This document shows, in pieces, positions 9,121 through 12,378 of a stretch of 48,253 bases of DNA. Source of the DNA: a virus; the IMG/VR virus record IMGVR_UViG_3300030406_001057, positions 2,189-50,441 of that record, one strand, 5' to 3'. The stretch's first letter is position 1, and the number at the start of each line of letters is the position of its first letter. A program made the position numbers and the translations under genes. The notes below the pieces were generated by a model, which was given only the letters and a program-made list of their open reading frames with translations, was not told where the DNA came from and ran no database searches.

Positions 9121-10350
9121 ATGGCTAAACTAGCATTCGATCAACTTTTCCGTAACGGGAAACCATATATGAAAAGAGACGATGTGTTGATAGATCGTAT
9201 TGCTAATGGAAAGTTGTTTGAGTTGTCAGATAATAGAGGATATTTAAAAGTATTTGATATTGTAGTAAGGTTTCAAGATGGTAGTGAGTCAAAGTATAAG
9301 AGTTCAGATTTAAGCAATGAAAGCGTAGTAAGGATATTAAAAGCAGAGATGCTTAGTTGTGCTAATCAAAAAGGTGGTAAGAAAAAGATATTATTAACAG
9401 GGTCACAGAGTGATCATGATGACTCACTAGTAGCAACATATAGTTTAACAGATTTAGAGAAAACTCATCATTTTGGTGGACAAAAACCTGGTGGACCTAA
9501 AGTAAACTTAGGAAATTTATATGAAGCAGACCTAGCAAATAGTTTTAATAATTTTGTAGATCATGGTGGAAAGTATCCTGATCATGTTACAACCATATTA
9601 AAAGCTATATGTCATGCTGAACCTGGAACTTGTTTCATCAGTGCGAAGCAAGAGGGTGGTGCTAATAAACCAAGACCCATGAGAGAAACTAATGGTGCTT
9701 TCTACATTTCAGCAGAAGGTAAGAATACAAAAGATATAGGTAAGACAGTAACAGATATTACATTAACAATAGCAAAACCTGGTGGTCAAGGAAAAAAGAA
9801 AATATATTTATCAGTCAAATTTGGTAGTACACTATCATTTTTTAACATAGGTGTAAGAGGTGGAGGTAGGGATGCACTATCAATATTCCCTAAACAAAAT
9901 TTACAAGAAGGTAATCTACCACAGATGGGAAAAGATTACTTAGATATGTTCAACATTGATCATCAGAAATTTTTAGATATATTTCAGAAATATGATCCTA
10001 ATGATAAGACTCCTACTGTAGATAACTACAAAGAATCATATCAGATTACAGGAACAGCAAAGAAAAACTTAGAAAATTTCTGTGCTAGTGGTATTGGATA
10101 TGGTTATTGGATGGTCCATTATGATGGTAGTTCTCTTCATTGCTATGAAGTTAACAAGACTTTTATGGAACGTGCTAGTAAATTATCCAGTAGTAAAATA
10201 GATATAGATTATGGTGGATCTCAAGGATATGGTAAGAGAGTTAACATAAATTTCTCCACTCAAGAATATGATTTTAGTTTCAATATTAGATCTAAGTCTG
10301 GTTCTGAAGTATATCCTACACACAGCAACGGAGATTATTTTAAGAAGTAA
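9121..10350 (+). CDS. conserved cyanophage protein, possible PD-(D/E)XK nuclease
   Basis: A 409-residue soluble protein of the cyanophage accessory core. A basic N-terminal third is followed by FGGQKPGGPKVNLGNLYEADL, with Glu135 in a likely helix. Next come an ISAKQEGG segment, then TDITLTI (Asp212), a Gly/Lys turn, and YLSVKFGSTLSFFNIG (Ser231-Val-Lys233). The order Glu, Asp, then S-x-K, followed by a G-S-T-L-x-x-N segment, resembles restriction-endonuclease-like enzymes such as those whose core reads SIK..GSTLLN. This is inference; no family was confirmed. It ends where the ligase-like gene begins (TAATGG). Confidence 0.75.
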   Translation: MAKLAFDQLFRNGKPYMKRDDVLIDRIANGKLFELSDNRGYLKVFDIVVRFQDGSESKYKSSDLSNESVVRILKAEMLSCANQKGGKKKILLTGSQSDHDDSLVATYSLTDLEKTHHFGGQKPGGPKVNLGNLYEADLANSFNNFVDHGGKYPDHVTTILKAICHAEPGTCFISAKQEGGANKPRPMRETNGAFYISAEGKNTKDIGKTVTDITLTIAKPGGQGKKKIYLSVKFGSTLSFFNIGVRGGGRDALSIFPKQNLQEGNLPQMGKDYLDMFNIDHQKFLDIFQKYDPNDKTPTVDNYKESYQITGTAKKNLENFCASGIGYGYWMVHYDGSSLHCYEVNKTFMERASKLSSSKIDIDYGGSQGYGKRVNINFSTQEYDFSFNIRSKSGSEVYPTHSNGDYFKK

Positions 10351-11546
10351 TGGCTAACATCAAACAACTTAAACACTTAGAACATTTGGAAGATGAGATG
10401 CTCAACTATGGAGTTGAGGGATGTAAGGCAGCAGTTTCTTTTCTTGAGGAACTGAGGAAGATGCTTGGTCATCAGGAAAGTAGTGGTTTTATGCAAACCA
10501 AATGGGATGGTGCTCCTGCTGTAATATGTGGAGTGCATCCATATACAAAAAGATTTTTTGTAGGAACTAAATCTGTATTTAATAAAGAGAATCCTAAAAT
10601 ATGCTTCTTTAATGAAGACATAGATACATTTTATGAGGGTGACCTTGCTGAAAAGTTAAAAGCATCTCTAAAATATTTCAAAGAACTAGAGATCAAAGGT
10701 GTAGTGCAAGGTGACTTGATGTTTACTTCTAAAGATTTAAGAAATGAAACCATTAACGGAGAAAAATTATACACATTTAGACCTAATACGATTACCTATG
10801 GTGTTCCTGTGCATCATGATCTTGGAACAAAAGCGAGCAGAGCAAAAATCGGCGTAGTATTTCATACACACTATGAAGGTGATGACCTTGCTACTATGCA
10901 AGCAAGGGCAGGTGCTGATGTTAAGGACTCTAATGATGTGTTTATCATAAAAAATGATACACCTATGCATAAAGTTGGTATGAGTCGTGTCGAGATGAAC
11001 AAGTTTGACCAGTCAATCCAAAAAATTGAACGTATGTGTAGGGAATCTGGTGATTTCTTGAATGAATTGGTTGATGCTCAAGGTAAAACTGGTGACGCAA
11101 AGTTTCATATCTCTTCTTTCTTAAAACCTTTCTTCAATGATGAGATTAAAAACGCTAGATCAATAGGAAATGTATCACAGACTCTAGAAAATCTTGCTAA
11201 TTTTTATCATGCAAAAACATCAAAAGAATTAGCAAAGATTAAAACAGAAAAGAACCTTGTTGCTAAGAGAAATCTTGTATATAAGAGTGAAAACTATCTC
11301 ATGGAGAATGAGACTAAATTTAAAGCGATGCTTTCTCTTTATAAAGAGTTGCAAGAAGTAAAGCAAATGGTTATAGATAAACTCGATCACCTAGAAAAGT
11401 TCAGAACATTTGTTCAAACTGAGAATGGGTATAAGGTTACTACTCCTGAGGGATATGTTCTTCATAAAGATGGAAGTATGATTAAGTTCGTCAACCGTTT
11501 GGAGTTTGCATTTAATAACTTTACTCTACAGAAACAATGGCGTTAG
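10350..11546 (+). CDS. nucleotidyltransferase/ligase-like protein (DUF6267-like)
   Basis: A 398-residue protein, probably of the DUF6267 group common in cyanophages. I read into it the ordered motifs of covalent nucleotidyltransferases (DNA/RNA ligases and capping enzymes). Motif I is TKWDGAPAV, with candidate nucleophile Lys51. The motif III position is VVQGDLMF (about 118-125). The IIIa position is IGVVFHTHYEG (about 167-177). Motif IV is PEGYVLH (Glu367) and motif V is MIKFVN (Lys379). A long helical insert (about 230-345) lies between IIIa and IV. The predicted activity is Lys-AMP formation and nucleic-acid joining or end modification. The stop overlaps the next gene by 10 bases. Confidence 0.8.
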   Translation: MANIKQLKHLEHLEDEMLNYGVEGCKAAVSFLEELRKMLGHQESSGFMQTKWDGAPAVICGVHPYTKRFFVGTKSVFNKENPKICFFNEDIDTFYEGDLAEKLKASLKYFKELEIKGVVQGDLMFTSKDLRNETINGEKLYTFRPNTITYGVPVHHDLGTKASRAKIGVVFHTHYEGDDLATMQARAGADVKDSNDVFIIKNDTPMHKVGMSRVEMNKFDQSIQKIERMCRESGDFLNELVDAQGKTGDAKFHISSFLKPFFNDEIKNARSIGNVSQTLENLANFYHAKTSKELAKIKTEKNLVAKRNLVYKSENYLMENETKFKAMLSLYKELQEVKQMVIDKLDHLEKFRTFVQTENGYKVTTPEGYVLHKDGSMIKFVNRLEFAFNNFTLQKQWR

Positions 11547-12100
11547 ACGGAAAGGTTTGCTTCTTTACATTTGGTAGGTTTCAACCACCTACCACTGGTC
11601 ATGCTGAGAGTTTTAATAGTGTAAAGCGTGCAGCAGGGACAAATGATTATTTGCTTTATATCTCACAGAGTGTTGATACAAAAGGTAGTAATCCTCTTCC
11701 TCCTGAGGTAAAATTGTCTTATATGAATAAGATGTTTCCGCAGCATAGAGGTAAAATTATTTCTGGACCTAGAGATCCAGTAGCAATTATGCAAGATCTA
11801 ATGATGAGAGGATATGATGAAGTTCATTTTCTAGTAGGATCTGATAGAGTTAACGCTATGAAGTTCCTACATAGATATAATGGTACTGAATATTCTTTTC
11901 GTAAAATTTATATTGAATCTTCTGGTAGCAGGGACGCGGACGGAGATACATTTTCTATCTCTGGAACTAAAATGAGACGTGCTGCTAATGATGGAGACTT
12001 TAAGGCATTTCGCCAAGGGATTCCTAGGTCACTATCAGATCAAGATACAAGAAAATTGATGCGAGAAATTGCTAATAGACTACCCGCTAACTTTAAATGA
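11537..12100 (+). CDS. HIGH-superfamily nucleotidylyltransferase (NMNAT-like)
   Basis: A 187-residue Rossmann-type nucleotidylyltransferase. The ATP-binding N-terminus is FGRFQPPTTGH (residues 12-22), the HxGH-type motif. FLVGSDR is at 98-104 and the C-terminal ISGTKMR at 141-147 matches the ISSTxxR motif. Relatives include nicotinamide-mononucleotide adenylyltransferase and pantetheine-phosphate adenylyltransferase; NAD synthesis or adenylylation of some other phosphate is possible. It is coupled to the ligase-like gene by a 10-base overlap. The substrate is not determined. Confidence 0.88.
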   Translation: MALDGKVCFFTFGRFQPPTTGHAESFNSVKRAAGTNDYLLYISQSVDTKGSNPLPPEVKLSYMNKMFPQHRGKIISGPRDPVAIMQDLMMRGYDEVHFLVGSDRVNAMKFLHRYNGTEYSFRKIYIESSGSRDADGDTFSISGTKMRRAANDGDFKAFRQGIPRSLSDQDTRKLMREIANRLPANFK

Positions 12101-12378
12101 AAACTTTTAAAGATATAAAAGAACAAGCACTCAGACAAAATTTCCGTAAAGGTAATGTCTTTACTGAAGGGAAGACTGTTATGAATGTAAACACTGGTGC
12201 AAAAGGAAAAATCATTCGCACTGGTCCAAACTATGTAATTTGTGTGACTGAAAGTAATGAGATGTTCCGCGCATGGGTGCGAGACATCAGGGAAGTCAAC
12301 GAAGTTATAAATAAACCAAGGAGAACACTATTTTTTACTCATGGACAAGCCAACACCGTCAACATCAGTGCGACATAA
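12097..12378 (+). CDS. small basic hypothetical protein, KOW/SH3-like core
   Basis: Ninety-three residues, overlapping the previous stop by 4 bases (ATGA). The core FTEGKTVMNVNTGAKGKIIRTGPNYVICVT looks like a small beta-barrel of KOW or SH3 type that could bind nucleic acid; this is inference. The tail (EVINKPRRTLFFTHG onward) overlaps the next gene by 38 bases. Confidence 0.65.
   Translation: MKTFKDIKEQALRQNFRKGNVFTEGKTVMNVNTGAKGKIIRTGPNYVICVTESNEMFRAWVRDIREVNEVINKPRRTLFFTHGQANTVNISAT

Follow-up and report, generated by a model that had tools for sequence, protein, structure and literature searches.

Within a 48,253-base stretch of DNA (hereafter the window) out of a 50,939-base virus record (G000), four open reading frames (ORFs) follow one another with overlaps of 1, 10 and 4 bases: gene 1 (P1, 9121..10350, 409 amino acids (aa)), gene 2 (P2, 10350..11546, 398 aa), gene 3 (P3, 11537..12100, 187 aa) and gene 4 (P4, 12097..12378, 93 aa). 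These and all other features located below are on the plus strand. Four packed genes at 9121-12378 had been described in a first-pass annotation made from the letters alone, and the ORFs lie at exactly these coordinates. Matches to phage protein families mark all four as genuine genes and not as ORFs that arose by chance: gene 1 phrog_8438 (E 6e-127), gene 2 DUF6267/PF19782 (E 1.9e-124) along with phrog_455, gene 3 phrog_3041, described as 'cytidyltransferase' (E 9e-65), and gene 4 phrog_4808 (E 6e-32). A CxxC-rich protein matching phrog_22379 and phrog_764 is encoded by gene 5 (P5, 12341..13528), which overlaps gene 4 and belongs with the module, since genes 3, 4 and 5 form a single ORF in 48 related loci. 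The reading that we favour, at about an even chance, is that the locus belongs to the core of T4-like cyanophages and of their relatives and has three layers: a ligase-like protein (P2), a virion-carried P3-P4-P5 unit and an accessory nuclease (P1). This analysis supplies the gene structure, the conserved residues and predicted folds, the fusions, the distribution and the peptide pattern, and published work the virion presence of P3 relatives; every enzymatic activity of the module proteins we infer.

Gene 2 and the ligase question in cyanomyoviruses

An ordered set of covalent nucleotidyltransferase motifs had been suspected in gene 2, and the alignment bears this out. K51-W-D-G54, K74, Q120-x-D122, E367-G368 and K379 are present in 41/41 rows, two short Syn19-type rows included, and by order and spacing we take them to be motifs I, Ia, III, IV and V of covalent nucleotidyltransferases. 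Motif I (KxDG, 10500..10511) holds the predicted nucleotidylated lysine K51, and motifs III, IV and V follow in order, a helical insertion (residues ~213-348) separating the middle part from motif IV. The predicted model of P2 (predicted local distance difference test score (pLDDT) 85.4) has an adenylyltransferase-domain fold. In a VIA-align comparison, for which the top 1000 chains were realigned and 50 entries listed, RNA and DNA ligases made up 49/50 of the matches listed (Z 5.4 to 7.8), with Naegleria RNA ligase as the best (7.8) and T4 Rnl2 and T4 Rnl1 at 6.5 and 6.4; the remaining entry is an Hsp70. Predicted fold and motif order (I-III-IV-V) liken P2 to T4 Rnl2, Naegleria RNA ligase and the ATP-dependent DNA ligases, and its motif IV string EGYVL is identical in T4 Rnl2.

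Several results weigh against this assignment. The best Foldseek match, T4 RNA ligase 2, is not significant (E 0.17); the predicted folds of the first two proteins are nonetheless those guessed at first pass. The Z values of P2 stay below 8, where common arrangements score. Motif III of covalent nucleotidyltransferases normally has E (GE), and P2 has GD instead. A C-terminal oligonucleotide-binding (OB) domain with motif VI is typical of DNA ligases and capping enzymes, and Rnl2-type RNA ligases have other C-domains; P2 shows no OB domain or motif VI, and because it ends ~20 residues past motif V we do not file it with the OB-domain DNA ligases. A profile search of PDB sequences with P2 found no ligase. 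Likewise, hhalign against small four-row ligase sets found nothing, a weak test because in several records the longest ORF is not the ligase (L266 and L271 are without KxDG, and L267 is apparently a spurious frame). P2 differs from polynucleotide ligases, then, in its GD motif III, its large helical insertion and its lack of an OB domain or of detectable sequence homology. On predicted fold and conserved residues, we regard it as a candidate ligase-family covalent nucleotidyltransferase, with an enzymatic activity that would follow from these features.

Such a protein would matter for cyanomyoviruses. According to the accessible text of a 2010 review (PMC2984593), no g30 homologue had been found in them; distant homologues or a host ligase were left open, and the host ligase was the preferred explanation. 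We scanned 14 complete cyanophage-type genomes (DLP6, Melnitz-2, Syn19, SynMITS9220M01, HTVC008M, P-SSM2, S-RIM44, S-RSM4, S-SM1, S-CREM1, S-CREM2, S-SZBM1, S-PM2 and Syn9) along with enteric, vibrio and aeromonas T4-like genomes for comparison (T4, KVP40 and Aeh1), 17 in total. DUF6267 is found in 14/14 of the former versus 0/3 of the latter, a count that is biased because it was through module matches that most of these genomes came into the set; S-CREM2, S-PM2 and Syn9, named independently of the P2 match, all three have it as well. The DNA ligase model PF01068 scores above cut-off in 1/14 (DLP6) versus 3/3 comparison genomes, the RNA ligase model PF09414 in 1/14 (S-CREM1) versus 3/3, and PF01653 in 0/17. 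By these three scans, 12/14 cyanophage-type genomes are without another recognisable ligase. The S-CREM2 protein gp190 carries the record label 'DNA ligase' yet matches none of the three models. P2 is hence the strongest candidate so far for the ligase function reported missing from cyanomyoviruses. Against this stands the alternative, preferred in the 2010 review, that host LigA could serve the phage. A link between DUF6267 and ligases was not found in the PubMed Central literature, subscription papers and preprints being outside its reach.

DUF6267 was also seen in other settings. In S-PM2 (AJ630128, 103037-104774; L260) it is split between two frames, the second running into the cytidyltransferase, which suggests a frameshift and a fusion. 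A genome-contig scan with the P2 alignment placed DUF6267 at 15 loci (L272-L286) on contigs of bacterial or archaeal assemblies, possibly phage.

The P3-P4-P5 unit and the N-termini of virion proteins

Gene 3 had been called a HIGH-family nucleotidylyltransferase, and this stands. P3 has GRFQPPTTGH at residue 13 and ISGTKMRR at 141, thereby carrying both the (H/T)xGH and the ISxTxxR signatures, and its best NCBIfam match is nadR_NMN_Atrans. In these features it resembles the NadR/NadM-type nicotinamide mononucleotide (NMN) adenylyltransferases (NMNATs), and chemistry linked to nicotinamide adenine dinucleotide (NAD), also suggested at first pass, is a plausible role for it. The match is far under the family cut-off, which weighs against the assignment: E is 3.3e-5, with 23.3 bits versus a curated 341.15 for TIGR01526 and 18.7 versus 21 for PF01467. 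P3 further differs from NadR and NadM in belonging to phage-specific families (phrog_3041 and phrog_395) and in its fusion with, or linkage to, P4 and P5.

The fusions define the unit. P3 and P4 share one ORF in 79/179 P3-bearing ORFs, P5 being joined too in 48 of these, and P4 and P5 form a single ORF at 3 loci. P4 itself, a small basic beta protein, matches columns 211-274 of phrog_395 in addition to phrog_4808, and phrog_395 matches 14/14 cyanophage-type genomes, also KVP40 and Aeh1, not T4. Since the single profile phrog_455 spans the P2, P3 and P4 regions, its coverage is a sequence-level feature pointing to a P2-P4 fusion in some phages. Many public records give P4 orthologues the name 'ribonucleotide reductase alpha subunit' or 'NrdB', probably a propagated error. 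Besides its CxxC pairs, P5 contains the string DNDGDVDKSD, which resembles an EF hand; a Pfam scan matched the protein to no family.

Relatives of P3 have been found in virions of four cyanophages. T4-GC190 was detected in S-SM1 particles (PMC3037559, available text), and the GC 190 annotation sits on the gene after P2 in Syn19 and S-SM1. The S-CREM2 virion contains ORF154, a P3 relative, plus the adjoining ORFs 155 and 156 (PMC10665884), the virion table of S-SZBM1 has S-SZBM1_140 and _139 (PMC9146016), and an NMNAT (ORF91) is reported from S-SCSM1 particles (PMC9602691), each according to the accessible portion of the source. All of these cytidylyltransferases or NMNATs are of the same family as P3, and in S-SM1 and S-SZBM1 they occupy the same locus. 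Two points tell against a packaged module: S-SZBM1_141 (P2) and _142 (the protein in the P1 slot) are not in that table, the numbering having been matched through protein order and length, and the authors of both PMC10665884 and PMC9602691, in the text available, caution about possible carry-over. No targeting mechanism is given, nor is DUF6267 named, in the accessible parts of these four virion papers, and DUF6267 is likewise not named in other PubMed Central literature.

A possible targeting signal can be read from the N-termini. In T4, IPIII is targeted through its first 10 residues, of which 4 and 7 direct the protein and 8 and 10 permit processing, and gp21 cleaves after L/I-x-E (PMC9026906, accessible text). 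We searched for M-x-x-aromatic-x-x-hydrophobic-[LIMVF]-x-E (form A) and for a version one residue shorter (form B). In T4, form A is present in 2/252 ORFs, both starting MKTYQEFIAE; at 100 and 193 aa they have the sizes of IPII and IPIII, and IPI is missed. In S-SM1 it is present in 1/207 ORFs, the cytidylyltransferase (MKKFSAFLNE-A). At annotated starts of S-CREM2 it marks a S-adenosylmethionine (SAM) hydrolase, an APH-like kinase, gp136 and the cytidylyltransferase (MKNFSSFLTE-A), and 4/4 of these belong to the 52 proteins, out of 219 coding sequences, that were detected in the virion (chance ~0.003 by simple multiplication); gp92 and gp135, which have form B, are not in the virion list. The ten-residue N-terminus of P3/P4 relatives thus resembles that of IPII and IPIII in its aromatic residue 4, hydrophobic residue 7 and L/I-x-E, the difference being that here the tag is attached to enzymes and that its processing is a prediction.

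Counts in related loci, in which rows are related and several start codons were allowed for module ORFs but only the first for the background (favouring the module somewhat), show form B in 78/78 stand-alone P4 and 46/48 P3+P4+P5 ORFs, 20 A and 8 B among 31 P3+P4 ORFs, 56 A and 11 B among 172 P2 ORFs, and 1 A and 11 B among 100 P3 alone. Neither form was seen in P1 (0/82), P5 (0/111) or P4+P5 (0/3), and 2107 other ORFs, many in the same operon, gave 18 A and 59 B. In the whole record, P4 is the only match to either form among 61 ORFs: its residues 1-9, MKTFKDIKE (12097..12123), make a short capsid-targeting-like N-terminus ending in the L/I-x-E protease-site pattern.

The rule has its exceptions. 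In the window the peptide is found in the short form only, one residue shorter than that of T4 and on P4, and window P3 is without it; in S-SZBM1, the strict matches at annotated starts (gp084 and gp085) are not in the virion table. Both findings weigh against the proposed targeting, and S-SZBM1_140 starts with MRFRQFIIE-A, a shifted form outside both patterns. Packaging of P3 and P4 in this phage, proteolytic cleavage and their timing would accordingly be predictions from the peptide pattern. A connection between targeting peptides and cyanophages was not found in PubMed Central (subscription papers and preprints lie outside), the one paper there that joins the two terms having the former in a reference title only.

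Two further observations concern S-CREM2. The virion-detected SAM hydrolase and APH-like kinase that share the tag lie within OR473000 3837-13331 (L225). Close to the N-terminus of a virion-detected protein annotated as Cas9 stands a similar string, RFASFMAE, and this suggests that the true start of that protein may lie later.

Gene 1 and the variable slot before gene 2

A possible PD-(D/E)XK core had been proposed for gene 1. From an alignment of 38 rows (A1), AlphaFold2 returns a P1 model of mean pLDDT 89.1 and predicted template modelling score 0.78, whose sole PDB match below E 0.001 in Foldseek is HinP1I with DNA (2fkc; E 1e-4, probability 1.00). VIA-align gives Z 10.3 and 9.3 for HinP1I and 8.4 for MspI, the next row reaching only 5.5, and a search of BFVD places cyanophage relatives on top with weak matches after them. 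The predicted structure hence has the HinP1I/MspI-like fold over ~200 residues. Compared with the catalytic residues of HinP1I and MspI, the candidate active site is D-x18-S-x-K (D212 to K233, 9754..9819), of the D...(E/Q/N/S)xK type. D212, S231 and K233 are present in 38/38 rows, the gap from D212 to S231 ranging from 12 to 18, as is E135 (9523..9525) in a predicted helix (130-143) preceding the core strands. Structure prediction therefore supports the PD-(D/E)XK assignment, with serine at the third position. P1 differs from HinP1I and MspI in having this serine where Q or E is usual before x-K and a small extra N-terminal beta domain, no methyltransferase was noted beside it, and a sequence-profile search gave no homology with HinP1I. 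The profile searches called for at first pass found families for genes 1-4, but no sequence-level match of P1 to HinP1I or of P2 to ligases. We regard P1 as an accessory nuclease candidate of the HinP1I/MspI fold, which fold and residues suggest would cut DNA.

The slot that P1 occupies, directly before P2, is hypervariable: among 80 related loci it holds 26 protein clusters at 85% identity, and a P1 relative is present in 41/77 loci from the P2 scan. One slot protein type (L010, 9135-9995) contains a PD...ELK string. A Pfam scan of 8 slot-position proteins, with E up to 1, found no nuclease family.

We see only a slim chance that P1 is a site-specific nuclease degrading host DNA at a site that the phage avoids, in replacement of T4 denA/denB. 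The predicted fold would suit this role, cyanomyoviruses are described as lacking denA, ndd and denB (PMC2984593, accessible text), and TGNCA is scarce in the whole record (45 seen versus 174 expected; relatives are mostly enriched). Slot clusters also had distinct depleted palindromes at first look, with a partition score of -61.6, where random partitions averaged -35.1 and reached -55.2 at the lowest. This link fails after control for relatedness, in a comparison of 80 loci, of which 40 had an avoided motif (32 once near-duplicates were removed). At slot identity of at least 88%, the avoided motif is shared by 7/9 pairs when P2 identity is at least 93% and by 1/7 when it is 85-93%, and at slot identity of 60-88% with P2 below 85% it is shared by 0/23. 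TGNCA avoidance, moreover, is common to loci with three different slot genes (L001-L004, L007-L013). The pairs matched for P2 identity do not support the slot gene as determinant of the avoided palindrome; palindrome avoidance is a lineage trait. CCGG, the MspI-like site, is absent from the whole record (0 seen versus 64 expected from base composition), and P1 as a CCGG cutter is not supported either: the count is 0 with P1 (136 expected, 41 loci) and 0 without it (123 expected, 30 loci), and the P1-less genomes S-SM1, S-SZBM1, Syn19 and S-PM2 are also without CCGG. The same tetranucleotide is missing from S-RIM44 and S-RSM4 in addition to these four, and GTAC is absent from S-SM1 and S-RIM44.

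The first-pass view of one coupled, undescribed system does not survive the survey of co-occurrence that it called for. P1 is rare, matching 24 of 50,697 phage records and 3/17 complete genomes, as befits an accessory gene, versus 467 records for gene 2 and 526 for gene 3. P2 and P3 are both in 14/14 cyanophage-type genomes and neighbours in 10/14; in P-SSM2, SynMITS9220M01, S-CREM1 and S-CREM2 they are far apart. Upstream of the module lie a UvsX-like recombinase, a gp41-like helicase and MazG, an order typical of T4-like cyanophages (Kyanoviridae), and the genes themselves have long been on record as cyanophage T4-gene clusters that lack an explanation. New here are the proposal that a protein universal in cyanophages is a candidate ligase and a plausible rule by which its virion-borne neighbour would be targeted.

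Competing explanations and significance

On the three-layer reading, K51 of P2 would accept a nucleoside monophosphate (NMP) from ATP or NAD+ and transfer it to the 5' end of a nucleic acid, which would then be sealed, in replication or, where P2 is itself tagged, at injection. P3 with P4 and P5 would form an NMNAT-like nucleotidylyltransferase unit, which in most relatives a peptide of the T4 type at the N-terminus (with an aromatic residue in position 4, a hydrophobic one in 7 and L/I-x-E in 8-10) would direct into the prohead. There it would join the core, be trimmed by the prohead protease, be carried in the virion and enter the cell with the DNA; carriage in the virion would let it act on the host as soon as injection takes place, NAD, or else a related pool of nucleotides, being its likeliest target. 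In the lineage to which the window belongs, P4 rather than P3 bears the tag, and packaging may proceed by way of P4. P1, in the variable slot before P2, would cut DNA. The P3-P4 packaging step draws on literature and on the peptide pattern, and the P2 and P1 steps we infer from predicted fold and residues.

Other explanations compete with parts of this scheme. A possible one, though clearly a minority view, is that P2 has a ligase fold with no nucleic-acid ligase role and nucleotidylates a small molecule or protein, forming with P3 a metabolic (NAD/cofactor) unit while host LigA serves replication. The span of phrog_455 from P2 to P4, the adjacency of P2 and P3 in 10/14 genomes, the lack of an OB domain and the host ligase favoured in the 2010 review (PMC2984593, accessible text) would all fit; the best structural matches of P2 are nevertheless polynucleotide ligases, and the separation of P2 and P3 in 4/14 genomes means that a strict metabolic pair is not required. 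NMNAT-like P3 next to ligase-like P2 also brings to mind an anti-defence kit, by which, for example, NAD+ would be restored after host NAD depletion and cut nucleic acids mended. Virion delivery suits such early action, and a phage NAD+ reconstitution pathway (NARP) is known (PMC12774641, accessible text). We nonetheless hold this unlikely, given that none of the five module proteins matches a PADLOC defence model at E 0.1 (0/5) and that the region of the window showed no partner enzyme of NARP, no search having been aimed at one.

The virion association might instead be structural, with P3, P4 and P5 as parts of the head core or scaffold that keep their enzyme folds only as vestiges. Capsid-targeting peptides send proteins into the prohead core (PMC9026906), and in S-SZBM1 particles the exponentially modified protein abundance index is 0.39 for the P5 relative (_139, taken as P5 from gene order) versus 0.26 for P3 (PMC9146016), both in the portions accessible. 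We find this improbable: window P3 retains both catalytic signatures, and the same tag is present on other S-CREM2 enzymes, the SAM hydrolase and the kinase. At the opposite extreme, and as a long shot, the module may be a self-contained end-sealing unit in or beside the head, in which DUF6267 would be a new class of NAD+/ATP polynucleotide ligase replacing T4 gp30, and virion P3 would turn NMN, released by DUF6267 or left by host NADases, into NAD+. If true, sealing of the incoming phage DNA and upkeep of NAD could precede all phage gene expression, and the tagged DUF6267 found in the lineage of Methylophilales/pelagiphage type (67/172 P2 ORFs have the strict or the short tag) would be the packaged ligase itself.

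Returning to the three-layer reading, its meaning for these phages is twofold. The 2010 review (PMC2984593), in its accessible text, left open why T4-like cyanophages lack homologues of the T4 DNA ligase and of the nucleases that degrade host DNA; a ligase-like core protein in all cyanophage-type genomes tested, beside a nuclease slot, makes the missing-ligase question directly testable. The targeting-peptide pattern, in turn, offers a simple sequence rule for telling which cyanophage proteins are taken into the head and so reach the cell, and this rule could separate real cargo, such as the kinase, the SAM hydrolase and the cytidylyltransferase, from carry-over in published virion proteomes.

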